DNA of 10,508 nucleotides from an uncultured Lachnospiraceae bacterium (lineage in GTDB: Bacteria; Bacillota; Clostridia; Lachnospirales; Lachnospiraceae). Under the pieces are notes generated by a model. It saw only the letters and a list, made by a program, of their open reading frames with translations, was not told where the DNA came from and did not search any database. The stretch covers positions 1 to 10,508 of the forward strand of contig CAJOQO010000340.1 in the NCBI GenBank assembly GCA_905236545.1. Direction: 5' to 3'. The translations under genes were made by a program, and so were the position numbers. This document shows, in pieces, positions 1,283 to 5,026 of this stretch; within the stretch, counting starts at the first letter, position 1; each line of letters opens with the position of its first letter.

Positions 1283-1301
1283 TCCGGCGTATCCTGCCGG
1301 A
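1283..1301. other. Small hairpin after the aminopeptidase gene
   Basis: TCCGGC (1283-1288) pairs perfectly with GCCGGA (1296-1301) around a 7-nt loop, 25 bp past the aminopeptidase stop. No T-run follows it, so it is not a standard intrinsic terminator. Its right arm runs into the first unit of the 26-bp repeat array. Confidence 0.35.
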
Positions 1302-1428
1302 AGCGGATGACAGGATGGGTCATCGGAAGCTGATGGCAGGATGGATCATCGGAAGCGGATGACAGGATAGATCCCTGGAAGCGGATGACAGGATGGATCC
1401 CTGGAATCTGATGGCAGGTTGAATCATT
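1299..1428 (+). repeat. Five tandem copies of a 26-bp unit
   Basis: Units run 1299-1324, 1325-1350, 1351-1376, 1377-1402 and 1403-1428. Each is exactly 26 bp and begins GGAA, followed by (G/T)C(G/T)GATG(A/G)CAGG and then a G/A/T-rich part ending ATCATC, ATCCCT or ATCATT. A sixth GGAA at 1429 leads straight into the gpmI ribosome site. The unit length is not a multiple of 3 and no convincing ORF covers the array. With its flanks it fills the 190-bp spacer between the aminopeptidase and gpmI. I see no sigma-70 promoter inside it. Confidence 0.95.
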
Positions 1429-1433
1429 GGAAA

Positions 1434-1439
1434 GGGAGG
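1434..1439 (+). promoter_or_regulatory. Ribosome binding site that fixes the gpmI start
   Basis: GGGAGG lies 8 nt before the ATG at 1448. It supports the long, signal-peptide-bearing form of the protein. A second SD-like GGAGG at 1549-1553 has no ATG, GTG or TTG in frame within a useful distance. Confidence 0.85.
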
Positions 1440-1447
1440 TTCTTTGA

Positions 1448-3109
1448 ATGAGAGGCAGAGTAAGCGAAAGATCACTGCTTCCGGTTTTGCTGGCTGTGCT
1501 TATGCTTCTGGCAGTTGTGCCTGGCGTTCCGGCCGGCACATTCTCGGCGGAGGCTGCGGAAAAGACGAACGGGAAGAGGCCGACCGTATTGCTGATCCTT
1601 GACGGCTATGGTCTGAGCGAGGAGAAGGAGCACAACGCGATCGCTCTGGCGGATACGCCCGTGATGGATCGCCTGATGAAGGAGTGCCCCTTCGCGAAGG
1701 GCAGTGCCAGCGGCCTGGCCGTGGGTCTTCCGGAAGGACAGATGGGCAGTTCCGAGGTGGGCCATCTGAATATAGGGGCCGGCCGTATCGTGTATCAGGA
1801 TCTGGTCAGGATCTCGAATACGATCGAGGATGGAACCTTCTTTGAGAATGAGGCGCTTTTGAAGGCTGTGAACAATGCAAAGGAAAAGGGAACGAGCCTT
1901 CATCTCTATGGCCTGCTCTCCGACGGCGGCGTGCACAGCCACAACTCCCATCTCTATGCGCTTCTGGAGCTGGCAAAGCGCCATGGACTGGAGAAGGTAT
2001 ATGTACACTGTTTCCTGGATGGGAGGGACACGTCTCCGGAATCCGGAAAAGGGTATGTCCAGGAATTGCAGGACGAGATGGACAGGATCGGATGCGGCAG
2101 GATCGCGACAGTGGGCGGCCGTTATTATGCGATGGACAGGGATAAAAACTGGGATCGCATCGAGAAGGCGTATCGGGCCATGACCCTCGGCGAAGGTGAA
2201 ACGGCATCCTCTGCCCTTGAGGCCGTGACACAGTCCTACGAGAAGGGTGAGACAGATGAATTCGTCCTGCCCACGGTGGTGATGGAGAACGGTGCGCCGG
2301 TGGCCACCATTGAGGACGGAGATTCCATTATCTTCTTCAATTTCCGCCCGGACCGCGCCAGGGAGATTACCCGGACCTTCTGCAGTGATGAGTTTGACGG
2401 CTTCGACAGAGGTCCCCGGAAGCAGGTGACTTACGTCTGCTTTACGGACTATGACGAGACGATCCCGAACAAAGAAGTTGCTTTCAGAAAAGATGTGATT
2501 GAGAATACCTTCGGCGAGTGGCTTGCCGCCAATGGCATGAAGCAGGCCAGGATCGCAGAGACGGAGAAATACGCCCACGTGACCTTCTTTTTCAACGGCG
2601 GCGTGGAAGCGCCCAATGAAGGGGAAGACCGTTTTCTGATTCCTTCCCCGAAGGTGGCGACTTACGATCTGAAGCCGGAGATGAGCGCGCAGGAGGTATG
2701 CGATACCCTGATCGAGAAGATCCGATCCGGCGCGTATGACGTGATCATCACAAACTTTGCCAACTCTGATATGGTAGGCCACACCGGCGTGGAGAAGGCC
2801 GCCATAGAGGCTGTCGCCTGCATCGATCAGTGTATCGGACGTGTGGTGGAGGCTGTTGAAGAAGTGGACGGACAGCTCTTCATCTGTGCGGATCATGGAA
2901 ACGCCGAGACGATGGTGGACAGTAAGACGGGAGAACCCTGGACGGCTCATACGACCAATCCCGTTCCCTTTATCATGGTGAATTATGATCCCGCCTATAC
3001 CCTGAGAGAGGGCGGCTGCCTGGCTGACATTGCGCCCACGCTGATCGAGATGATGGGGATGGAGAAGCCGGCGGAGATGACGGGAGAGTCACTGCTGGTC
3101 AGGAAATAA
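1448..3109 (+). CDS. gpmI: 2,3-bisphosphoglycerate-independent phosphoglycerate mutase with N-terminal signal peptide
   Basis: Interconverts 3- and 2-phosphoglycerate in glycolysis through a phosphoserine intermediate, normally in the cytoplasm and with two Mn ions. The protein is 553 aa, against about 510 usual. Catalytic residues are complete: Asp52 (ILDGYG), nucleophile Ser102 (MGSSEVGH), His163, DGRD 191-194, Arg225 and Arg231, FRPDR 299-303, Lys374 (ETEKYAH), Asp441/His445 (DMVGHTG), Asp482/His483 (ADHGN) and His501. The extra length is N-terminal. Residues 1-9 are basic, 10-27 are a Leu/Val/Ala hydrophobic core, and a type I cleavage site fits after Ala36 (AEA|AEK). The enzyme core starts near residue 44. 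The start is set by GGGAGG 8 nt upstream; Met19 as a start would still leave a hydrophobic leader. I infer export or membrane attachment, which is odd for this enzyme. The function call is firm, the location is not. Confidence 0.97.
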   Translation: MRGRVSERSLLPVLLAVLMLLAVVPGVPAGTFSAEAAEKTNGKRPTVLLILDGYGLSEEKEHNAIALADTPVMDRLMKECPFAKGSASGLAVGLPEGQMGSSEVGHLNIGAGRIVYQDLVRISNTIEDGTFFENEALLKAVNNAKEKGTSLHLYGLLSDGGVHSHNSHLYALLELAKRHGLEKVYVHCFLDGRDTSPESGKGYVQELQDEMDRIGCGRIATVGGRYYAMDRDKNWDRIEKAYRAMTLGEGETASSALEAVTQSYEKGETDEFVLPTVVMENGAPVATIEDGDSIIFFNFRPDRAREITRTFCSDEFDGFDRGPRKQVTYVCFTDYDETIPNKEVAFRKDVIENTFGEWLAANGMKQARIAETEKYAHVTFFFNGGVEAPNEGEDRFLIPSPKVATYDLKPEMSAQEVCDTLIEKIRSGAYDVIITNFANSDMVGHTGVEKAAIEAVACIDQCIGRVVEAVEEVDGQLFICADHGNAETMVDSKTGEPWTAHTTNPVPFIMVNYDPAYTLREGGCLADIAPTLIEMMGMEKPAEMTGESLLVRK

Positions 3110-3334: not shown

Positions 3335-5026
3335 ATGAAGAAGAGAAACCTGTTTGTTTGTTCGTTATTGTCATTGTCTGTGGCGGCGAATCTGGCGCTG
3401 CCGTCTCTGGCCGGGGATACATGTCGTTCAGACGCTTCTTCGGAAGTGGCGCAGGAACAGAGCGCAAAGACACAGGCGGGTGATGCCCGGACAGAGAATA
3501 CGGAATTGCAGGCGCCGGATGGAAACGGCGGTCCGGGAGGAGACGGGACAACGCCTCCGGAGAAGCCGTCGGGCGAGGCACCGGACGGGAACGGCGGCCC
3601 GGGAGGAGACGGGACAACACCGCCGGAGAAGCCGTCAGGCGAGGCGCCGGACGGGAACGGAGGTCCTGGCGGAGCCGGCGGTCCGGATGGAGCCGGCGGC
3701 CCCGGGGGACAGGAAAGCGTGACATACGCGGCGGTCAATGAGGTCACATCAGATTCTCAGGAATTCACCGGTGATATCGAATCGACAGGTACCGATGAGA
3801 ATGCGATTCTGGTGAGCGGATCCGATGCGGCCGCTGTCGTCAAAGGGGCGGCCGTTACAAGGAAGAGTGATGACTCTGATTCCGGGAATACATCCAGCTT
3901 TTACGGAAACGCTGCCGCGCTGCTTTCCACGGATGGAACCCTGTATATTTCGGACAGCACGATCGACACCGATTCGGCAGGCGGCGCGGGCGCATTTGCC
4001 TATGGAGACGGAACGGTGTATCTTGCGGACAGCACGATCACGACACAGCAGGGCACCTCGGGAGGCATCCATGCCGCAGGCGGCGGGACGCTCTATGCGT
4101 GGAACCTGGATGTAACAACCCAGGGCGGCTCCTCGGCCGCGATCCGCTCCGACAGGGGAGGCGGCACCATGGTCGTGGACGGAGGAACTTTTACGACAAA
4201 TGGAATCGGAAGTCCCGCGGTCTACTCCACGGCAGACATTGCGGTTCATGGCGCGACGCTTACGGCGAATGCTTCCGAGGCGACCTGTATCGAAGGCCTG
4301 AATTCGATCCGTCTGTTTGACTGCAGCCTCACGGGCAACATGCCGGACGACAATGAGCAGAATGATGTGCTCTGGAACGTTATCGTTTACCAGTCCATGT
4401 CCGGTGACGCGGAGGATGGAAACGGGACGTTTGAAATGGTTGGAGGAACACTGACCGCGCAGGCGGGCGGAATGTTCTACACCACCAATACGCAGTCGAC
4501 CTTCATATTGAACGATGTCGATATCAACTACGCTGATCAGTCGGATTTCTTCCTTCGCTGCACCGGCAATGCGAACGGCCGCGGATGGGGTACTGCCGGA
4601 GCAAACGGAGCGGACTGCAGCTTTACCGGAATCGGGCAGGAGATGGAAGGCGATGTGATCTGGGACAGGATCTCGAACCTTGATTTCTATCTGACCCAAA
4701 GCAGTACGCTGACCGGGGCATGCATCGAGGATACGACCTATTCGGGAGGAGAAGGCGAAGGTACCTGCAGCCTGTATATCGATGAAGGATCTTCCTGGAT
4801 CGTCACCGGCGACAGCACTCTGACATCGCTCAGCCTGATGGGAAGCCTGACAGATGAGGATGGCAATCCGGTATCCGTCATCGGAACCGATGGAACCGTT
4901 TATGTGGAAGGCAGCAGCCCGTATACGGTCACAGTAGAAACCTTCAGCGAGACCGCAGACCTGAGCGGCGCCAGTGCGGCAGACAGCTGGGAAACGTACG
5001 CCGCCGTGCGGCCTGAGAATCTTTGA
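3335..5026 (+). CDS. Secreted right-handed beta-helix repeat protein with Gly/Pro-rich linker (adhesin-like, function unknown)
   Basis: 563 aa. Residues 1-26 form a signal peptide (MKKRN, then a hydrophobic core, cleavage likely after PSLA). Residues 27-60 are polar. Residues 61-126 are a low-complexity linker with two full 22-residue repeats starting PDGNGGPGGDG and a third partial one fading into GGPDGAGGPGG. From about 130 to 500 there are short Ser/Thr/Gly/Asp-rich strands such as GTLYISDSTI, GTVYLADSTI, GTLYAWNLDV and GTMVVDGGTF, typical of a pectate-lyase-like parallel beta-helix. From memory, the stretches SAAIRSDRGGG, GSPAVYSTA, YQSMSGDA and GRGWG recur in secreted proteins of gut Firmicutes. 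No sortase motif, SLH repeat or C-terminal membrane helix is visible, so it is probably released or held non-covalently. Polysaccharide binding, like the Cthe_2159 group, is a possibility only. The start is set by AGGAGG 8 nt upstream. Confidence 0.85.
   Translation: MKKRNLFVCSLLSLSVAANLALPSLAGDTCRSDASSEVAQEQSAKTQAGDARTENTELQAPDGNGGPGGDGTTPPEKPSGEAPDGNGGPGGDGTTPPEKPSGEAPDGNGGPGGAGGPDGAGGPGGQESVTYAAVNEVTSDSQEFTGDIESTGTDENAILVSGSDAAAVVKGAAVTRKSDDSDSGNTSSFYGNAAALLSTDGTLYISDSTIDTDSAGGAGAFAYGDGTVYLADSTITTQQGTSGGIHAAGGGTLYAWNLDVTTQGGSSAAIRSDRGGGTMVVDGGTFTTNGIGSPAVYSTADIAVHGATLTANASEATCIEGLNSIRLFDCSLTGNMPDDNEQNDVLWNVIVYQSMSGDAEDGNGTFEMVGGTLTAQAGGMFYTTNTQSTFILNDVDINYADQSDFFLRCTGNANGRGWGTAGANGADCSFTGIGQEMEGDVIWDRISNLDFYLTQSSTLTGACIEDTTYSGGEGEGTCSLYIDEGSSWIVTGDSTLTSLSLMGSLTDEDGNPVSVIGTDGTVYVEGSSPYTVTVETFSETADLSGASAADSWETYAAVRPENL
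3515..3673 (+). repeat. In-frame 66-bp tandem repeat in the linker of the beta-helix gene
   Basis: Two full 66-bp units (3515-3580 and 3581-3646) and a 27-bp partial unit (3647-3673) encode 22-residue repeats made of PDGNGGPGG, DGTTPPEK and PSGEA. Differences between the two full units are mostly third-position (for example gat/gac and aca/acg), so they are old enough to have drifted while protein sequence was kept. Confidence 0.95.

Follow-up and report, generated by a model that had tools for sequence, protein, structure and literature searches.

The window, by which we mean the whole 10,508-nucleotide stretch of DNA that was analysed, carries between positions 1448 and 3109 what its sequence marks as a cofactor-independent phosphoglycerate mutase (GpmI) with a Sec/signal peptidase I-type leader. 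Our reading is that the product is probably a dedicated secreted, catalytically competent GpmI paralogue and one of several exported metabolic enzymes in its lineage, which probably belongs to the Lachnospiraceae; the bacterium itself probably lives in the gut. Glycolytic enzymes found outside bacteria are usually ascribed to lysis or non-classical release, because they have no signals, and the moonlighting enzymes of cell surfaces as a rule come from the housekeeping gene and lack a signal peptide. The window copy resembles this class in being a glycolytic enzyme expected outside the cell, but it differs in bearing a signal peptide of its own and in being encoded apart from the housekeeping gene, which lies elsewhere in the genome. 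In the open-licence literature we found no published exported, extracellular or secreted phosphoglycerate mutase and no signal peptide ascribed to one, which is weak evidence of such an enzyme being unreported. A signal-bearing GpmI clade with an unchanged active site and a distinct charge suggests that selection may favour such an enzyme outside the cell.

The original prediction held that a GpmI core is preceded in frame by a leader with an AEA site, and that the only good ribosome site (GGGAGG, 8 nt) serves the long form. The open reading frame, the match to TIGR01307 and the reading of the leader bear out the first statement, and the ribosome site stands directly before the long form, as the second would have it (Table 1). 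The leader of the window protein is MRGRVSERSLLPVLLAVLMLLAVVPGVPAGTFSAEA, followed after the predicted cut by AEKTNGKRPTV and the rest of the protein; its start is basic, and by hydropathy and motif it has the basic n-region, the hydrophobic h-region and the small-x-small site of a Sec/signal peptidase I substrate. Residues 1-36 contain no Cys, and hence no lipobox Cys. Behind the leader, TIGR01307 covers residues 45-550 (profile positions 2-504 of 504) with 742.1 bits against a cut-off of 330.65, and residues 42-552 align with 619 bits to 1EJJ, which we take to be the GpmI structure of Geobacillus stearothermophilus. The stricter NCBI model NF003897 scores the window protein at 696 bits and the genus housekeeping copy at 685, both below its cut-off of 862. 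A promoter and terminator scan around the leadered gene gave nothing exceeding shuffles, and the unit of the tandem repeat that ends just upstream has no match elsewhere in the same genome with up to 3 mismatches allowed.

Table 1. Positions of the leadered gpmI gene and its parts in the window, and of the other signal-bearing enzymes found in the genus
Feature	Position	Strand	Remarks
Leadered gpmI open reading frame	1448-3109	+	553 codons; ATG at 1448, end at 3109
Ribosome-binding site GGGAGG of the long (leadered) form	1434-1439	+	8 nt 5′ of the ATG; read directly
Predicted Sec signal peptide, residues 1-36	1448-1555	+	From sequence: n-region MRGRVSER, h-region about 10-27, likely cleavage after A34-E35-A36, before A37
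Short linker AEKTN, from predicted cleavage site to core	1556-1570	+	Read from sequence
Complete GpmI catalytic core, residues 42-553 plus stop	1571-3109	+	TIGR01307, Pfam iPGM_N and Metalloenzyme, alignment to 1EJJ
26-bp tandem repeat, 5.2 copies	1298-1432	+	3′ end just upstream of the gpmI ribosome site
Signal-bearing phosphotransacetylase (G017)	L028 14732-15862, also L158 1483-2613 (minus strand in both)		Clear signal peptide
Signal-bearing prephenate dehydratases	L215, L220, L222, L223, L225, L226		Distinct from cytosolic CM-PDT

A mis-called start, or a dual product, would make the leader untranslated or incidental, with an internal start giving a cytoplasmic form. The start codon closest to the core in the window, a TTG in the first strand 3 codons before the LDG, speaks for this, but it has no ribosome site and is the sole in-frame start codon among the last 22 codons before the LDG; the claim that the core has no ATG, GTG or TTG served by a ribosome site was thus upheld. 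The same 22 codons hold no start codon in two of the other congeneric leadered genes (L027 and L028), and in the window, L026 and L029 they hold ones only 2-4 codons before the LDG. In each of the four further leadered genes of the genus, a purine-rich stretch resembling a ribosome site precedes the point where the leader begins, though a weaker one in L026. A separate cytosolic gpmI gene exists in the genome, and the leader recurs in nearly all the listed relatives, as described below; we therefore regard a mis-called start as highly improbable, and it was rejected on the absence of a core start codon with a ribosome site. Leaderless gpmI loci of the genus, the family and named genomes served as the control (105 resolved, 22 unresolved by motif). 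In 104 of the 105 resolved loci a start codon lies 8-14 residues before the LDG, and in 70 a stop codon is too close upstream for any leader to fit. Only 35 have upstream room for at least 15 open residues, and none of these reaches a mean Kyte-Doolittle hydropathy of 2.0 over 15 residues, the value used as the leader test. By itself this threshold is not specific: several leaderless GAPDH loci also pass it, their native N-terminus and translated ribosome site being hydrophobic.

Among the GpmI relatives, taken as the best 120 of 7995 database matches with the window's own entry included, 119 have a leader above the 2.0 threshold, and the lone exception (P0093) is a gene call that starts within the leader. 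All 119 show at least 2 Lys/Arg near the start of the h-region and an A-x-A-like site, the strict AxA being present in 96. Relatives that have no leader and start at a non-standard codon near 1565-1589 had been named as the finding that would speak against the leader, and among the 120 listed none of that kind turned up. Nor does an artefact of assembly or binning, with a foreign leader or contig joined to gpmI, appear credible. A bin as fragmentary as this one, with 349 contigs, 72% completeness and 4% contamination, would suit such an accident, but the same layout recurs in four further genomes of the genus and in many of the listed database proteins on other contigs, and on this ground the artefact was rejected.

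The character of the leaders bears on whether they are cut. When the relatives are thinned to 26 rows (below about 95.5% identity), a leader is present in 25, with a strict AxA in 16 of these and none in the other 9. This shortfall is consistent with an uncleaved signal anchor, which would tether the mutase to the outer face of the membrane and not release it, as is the leader of P0114, which resembles a plain transmembrane segment. Lipobox-like motifs point the same way and occur in 8 of the 119 leadered GpmI relatives (best 120 of 7995) and in 69 of 116 leaders among the best 120 listed relatives of prephenate dehydratase (PDT), an enzyme discussed below. For phosphotransacetylase (Pta), also discussed below, the corresponding count is 22 of 85. 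Against an anchor stand the A-E-A of the window protein and the small-x-Ala that relatives repeatedly show at residues 34-36, and we consider tethering unlikely. In six relatives (P0079, P0084, P0085, P0089, P0090 and P0105) the linker has expanded to a variable repeat rich in Ala, Glu, Asn and Gln.

The search of the genome for a second, leaderless gpmI, which the original prediction had put forward as a check, was successful. Such a gene lies on contig C260 and is 73% identical to the leadered copy, with an ATG and ribosome site directly 5′ of MSKRPTVLMILDGYG; its neighbours are presumably a homoserine-dehydrogenase-like gene on one side and an HtrA-like gene on the other. Across the genus, 18 of 19 genomes have a gpmI match and 5 of the 19 (G000, G003, G007, G017 and G018) have a leadered copy, each of these five having a leaderless gpmI too. 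A search of 299 genomes of the family, from 298 genera, gave a match in 280; the window's own is the sole one above 1000 bits, and the 29 other family gpmI loci that were read all start as plain cytosolic enzymes, without a leader. The gpmI relatives read in named genomes also have none, in a scan limited to at most 75% identity from which records near the window were perhaps omitted.

Three options had been offered for the leadered gene, the first being an exported or tethered mutase. The second, a second copy specialised for the outside, is supported by the C260 gene, the distribution over 5 of 19 genomes and the single leadered clade. The third, a recent fusion of a leader to the housekeeping gene, was rejected, because the housekeeping gpmI is a separate gene in the same genome and the leadered lineage includes listed sequences only 80-88% identical to the window. 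The tree agrees. It has 112 rows, is of the quick kind and is rooted for drawing only; rows outside 480-530 residues were omitted, and 26 rows were kept from the database after thinning. All 31 leadered rows cluster in a single clade (SH-aLRT 100, stem 0.23), the 16 housekeeping rows of the genus make up a second (support 100, stem 0.19), and the two clades fall within one group (97) with three leaderless rows. The probable placement in the Lachnospiraceae comes from the named neighbours in this tree. Since the leadered rows are one clade, the gene is best seen as an established paralogue and not a recent fusion. The topology suggests that the gene was duplicated once, close to the base of the genus, and gained its leader once, with later loss or patchy sampling. 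Among the five congeneric leadered genes, residues differ at 56% of sites in the leader and at 15% in the core, and the differences by codon position are 0.38/0.32/0.41 in the leader and 0.10/0.06/0.40 in the core. On these figures the leader reads as conserved in character, not in letters, and the core as being under strong purifying selection.

The core is full length by TIGR01307 and 1EJJ, and the 15 positions checked (D12, S62, H123, R153, D154, R185, R191, R261, R264, K336, D403, H407, D444, H445 and H462 in 1EJJ, which we take to be its metal and substrate positions) are identical to 1EJJ in all 31 leadered rows. The differences from the known enzyme are the signal peptide, the status of second copy, Ser in place of Asn61 and a more negative core. 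Position 61 (1EJJ numbering), beside the catalytic Ser62, is Ser in 31 of 31 leadered rows and Asn in 16 of 16 genus housekeeping rows and 65 of 65 others; it is the most striking of 11 alignment columns that set the leadered clade apart. The mean net charge of the core is -37.2 in the leadered rows as against -23.2 in the genus housekeeping rows (n = 16) and -23.9 in the others (n = 65), so that leadered cores are about 14 charges more negative than the housekeeping form of the genus. Leadered cores also average 10.4 cysteines as against 7.6. Exported proteins commonly have fewer cysteines, a trend by which anaerobes are less bound, and the extra ones argue mildly against adaptation to an oxidising outside.

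The main rival to an enzyme at work outside the cell is an exported moonlighting protein, that is, a surface adhesin or binder of host proteins for which catalysis is irrelevant. An export signal and an acid shift would suit a surface protein, surface glycolytic enzymes are a known phenomenon, and exported pathway partners were not seen. But all 31 leadered rows have kept the 15 active-site and metal residues, although identity with the window falls to about 80-83%, which disfavours moonlighting, since an adhesin would be free to lose those residues. Moreover, neither a sortase motif nor a binding repeat was apparent by eye at the C-terminus of the window GpmI. We hold the moonlighting explanation to be rather unlikely.

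For the preferred reading, a secreted and active paralogue, the simplest course of events would be a single duplication of GpmI at or near the ancestor of the genus and a single gain of a Sec signal peptide at the N-terminus, after which the leadered copy would have been passed on in some lines and lost from others, beside the cytosolic gene. The long form would be translated and passed unfolded across the membrane by Sec, and signal peptidase I would probably cut after the A-x-A near residue 36. Folding outside would then yield a soluble, metal-dependent mutase, either in the wall zone or secreted, which may still interconvert 2- and 3-phosphoglycerate or act on a close phospho-ester. The parts of this account differ in strength: export and cleavage are very likely, judged from the leaders, while for catalysis kept outside the cell the balance tips only slightly in favour. 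The source of substrate and the benefit are matters of speculation. Phosphoglycerates are generally considered scarce outside cells, which counts against this reading, as does the presence of the leadered gene in only 5 of 19 congeneric genomes and the single family match above 1000 bits. They might come from lysis or leakage, or the substrate might be wall phospho-esters.

Seven enzyme families (GpmI, Pta, PDT, enolase, PGK, GAPDH and AckA) were examined in the genus, the last six by a tblastn survey, and leadered copies were found in three of them, GpmI, Pta and PDT, which together make up no pathway. Pta and PDT were chosen after a chance sighting near leadered gpmI, and thus three of seven should not be read as an unbiased rate. 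When the genus loci were scanned heuristically for reading frames with a signal, 13 were flagged, including 4 GpmI, 1 Pta and 3 PDT. For Pta, 18 of 19 congeneric genomes have a match and one has a leadered copy; 30 of the 34 matches were placed as loci, one of which (L157) is interrupted by a contig end. Among the best 120 of 7999 Pta relatives, 85 have a leader at the 2.0 threshold, and the mean core charge is -16.7 in the leadered relatives (n = 85, -24 to -12) and -8.2 in the leaderless (n = 35, -22 to -5), with overlapping ranges. In the genus, the leadered Pta has a charge of -21, and the 19 leaderless loci range from -9 to -13.

Similar results were obtained for PDT. A match is present in 18 of 19 congeneric genomes and a leadered copy in 6 (24 of 25 matches placed; the PDT locus L224, read separately, is cytosolic), and 115 of the best 120 of 1753 relatives have a leader at a laxer hydropathy threshold of 1.6. 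The charge is -21 to -36 in the 6 leadered loci and -9 to -13 in 8 cytosolic CM-PDT loci. A TRF motif, to which we assume a catalytic role in PDT, is present in 118 of these best 120 of 1753; motif matching was by regular expression, which missed rows, as for the PDT HDRP motif (44 of 120). In the family, PDT of the signal-bearing type was found in 2 of 200 genomes at a strict 1e-80. One congeneric genome (G003) has a tyrosine-phosphatase-like domain (PF13350, Y_phosphatase3) fused to PDT behind one signal peptide (L026 1439-3499, minus strand), separated by one gene from the leadered gpmI.

The leadered Pta and PDT of the genus are like the leadered GpmI in having a leaderless copy beside them, a more acidic core and no pathway operon in the loci read; they differ in being non-homologous to GpmI and in that a lipobox-like motif is commoner. 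There is precedent for biosynthetic enzymes exported beside cytosolic versions. The AroQ-gamma chorismate mutases, PheC and the CM-CDT fusions are described as being of this kind, with a debated role, and PheC as probably derived from solute-binding proteins (PMC10520331). The likeness is in export alongside a cytosolic form, and the difference lies in the enzymes and organisms; in particular, PheC is set apart by its probable origin in solute-binding proteins from the exported PDT seen here, which matches PF00800.

Leadered GpmI, Pta and PDT in one genus suggest that ordinary metabolic reactions may be run outside the cell. The unlinked, acid-shifted exported copies would act on metabolites from the cell itself, its neighbours or lysed food cells. 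As a broader and tentative idea, which we think possible but do not favour, the lineage may practise an "exo-metabolism": duplicated GpmI, Pta, PDT and perhaps more would have been given Sec or lipoprotein signals independently, made more acidic and set to work outside the membrane on leaked or lysis-derived metabolites, where they would salvage or remodel a common pool or produce signals. The two further leadered enzymes make an extracellular chemistry of phosphoglycerate, acetyl-phosphate/CoA and prephenate testable.

The neighbouring steps of glycolysis present a different picture. No leader was found on enolase (18 of 19 loci placed, some partial; family matched in 14 of 19 congeneric genomes), on PGK (16 of 16 loci placed; 15 of 19 genomes) or on GAPDH (16 of 18 loci placed; 14 of 19 genomes), nor on AckA, for which 30 loci were fetched from 42 matches in the genus and all 30 lack a leader. 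In the five genomes that have leadered GpmI, the enolase, PGK and GAPDH families are each incomplete, as are the bins. Because these three enzymes are without a leader in the loci read, an exported glycolysis is not supported, and the mutase is apparently no part of one, as far as the incomplete bins show. A second PGK type in G009, G011 and G016 (446-codon frames) was considered as an exported PGK and rejected: it is cytosolic and leaderless in L202 and L198, and in L199 (G016) there is no hydrophobic stretch upstream. In two of these loci (L202 337-4101 in G009 and L198 325-4038 in G011) a divergent GAPDH-like gene, the PGK and a third gene, which we take to be LarA-like, form a cytosolic cluster; G016 has the same PGK type.

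The surroundings of the leadered genes vary. In the window, gpmI lies between an M18 aminopeptidase gene and the gene of a secreted repeat protein, and the other four leadered gpmI genes have mostly different neighbours, G003 and G018 having a few genes in common nearby. No conserved operon partner was found among the five neighbourhoods, and since these mostly differ, context yields no function. The repeat protein of the window (3335-5026) has 563 residues, appears to carry a signal peptide and contains a 66-bp (22-residue) repeat rich in Gly and Pro; neither Pfam nor NCBIfam gave a match. Beyond it, between 5135 and 8982, are consecutive GtrA-like, glycosyltransferase 2 (PgfS/ArnC-like, below cut-offs) and LtaS/phosphoglycerol-transferase-like genes, perhaps a cluster for a cell-surface glycan or glycerophosphate.
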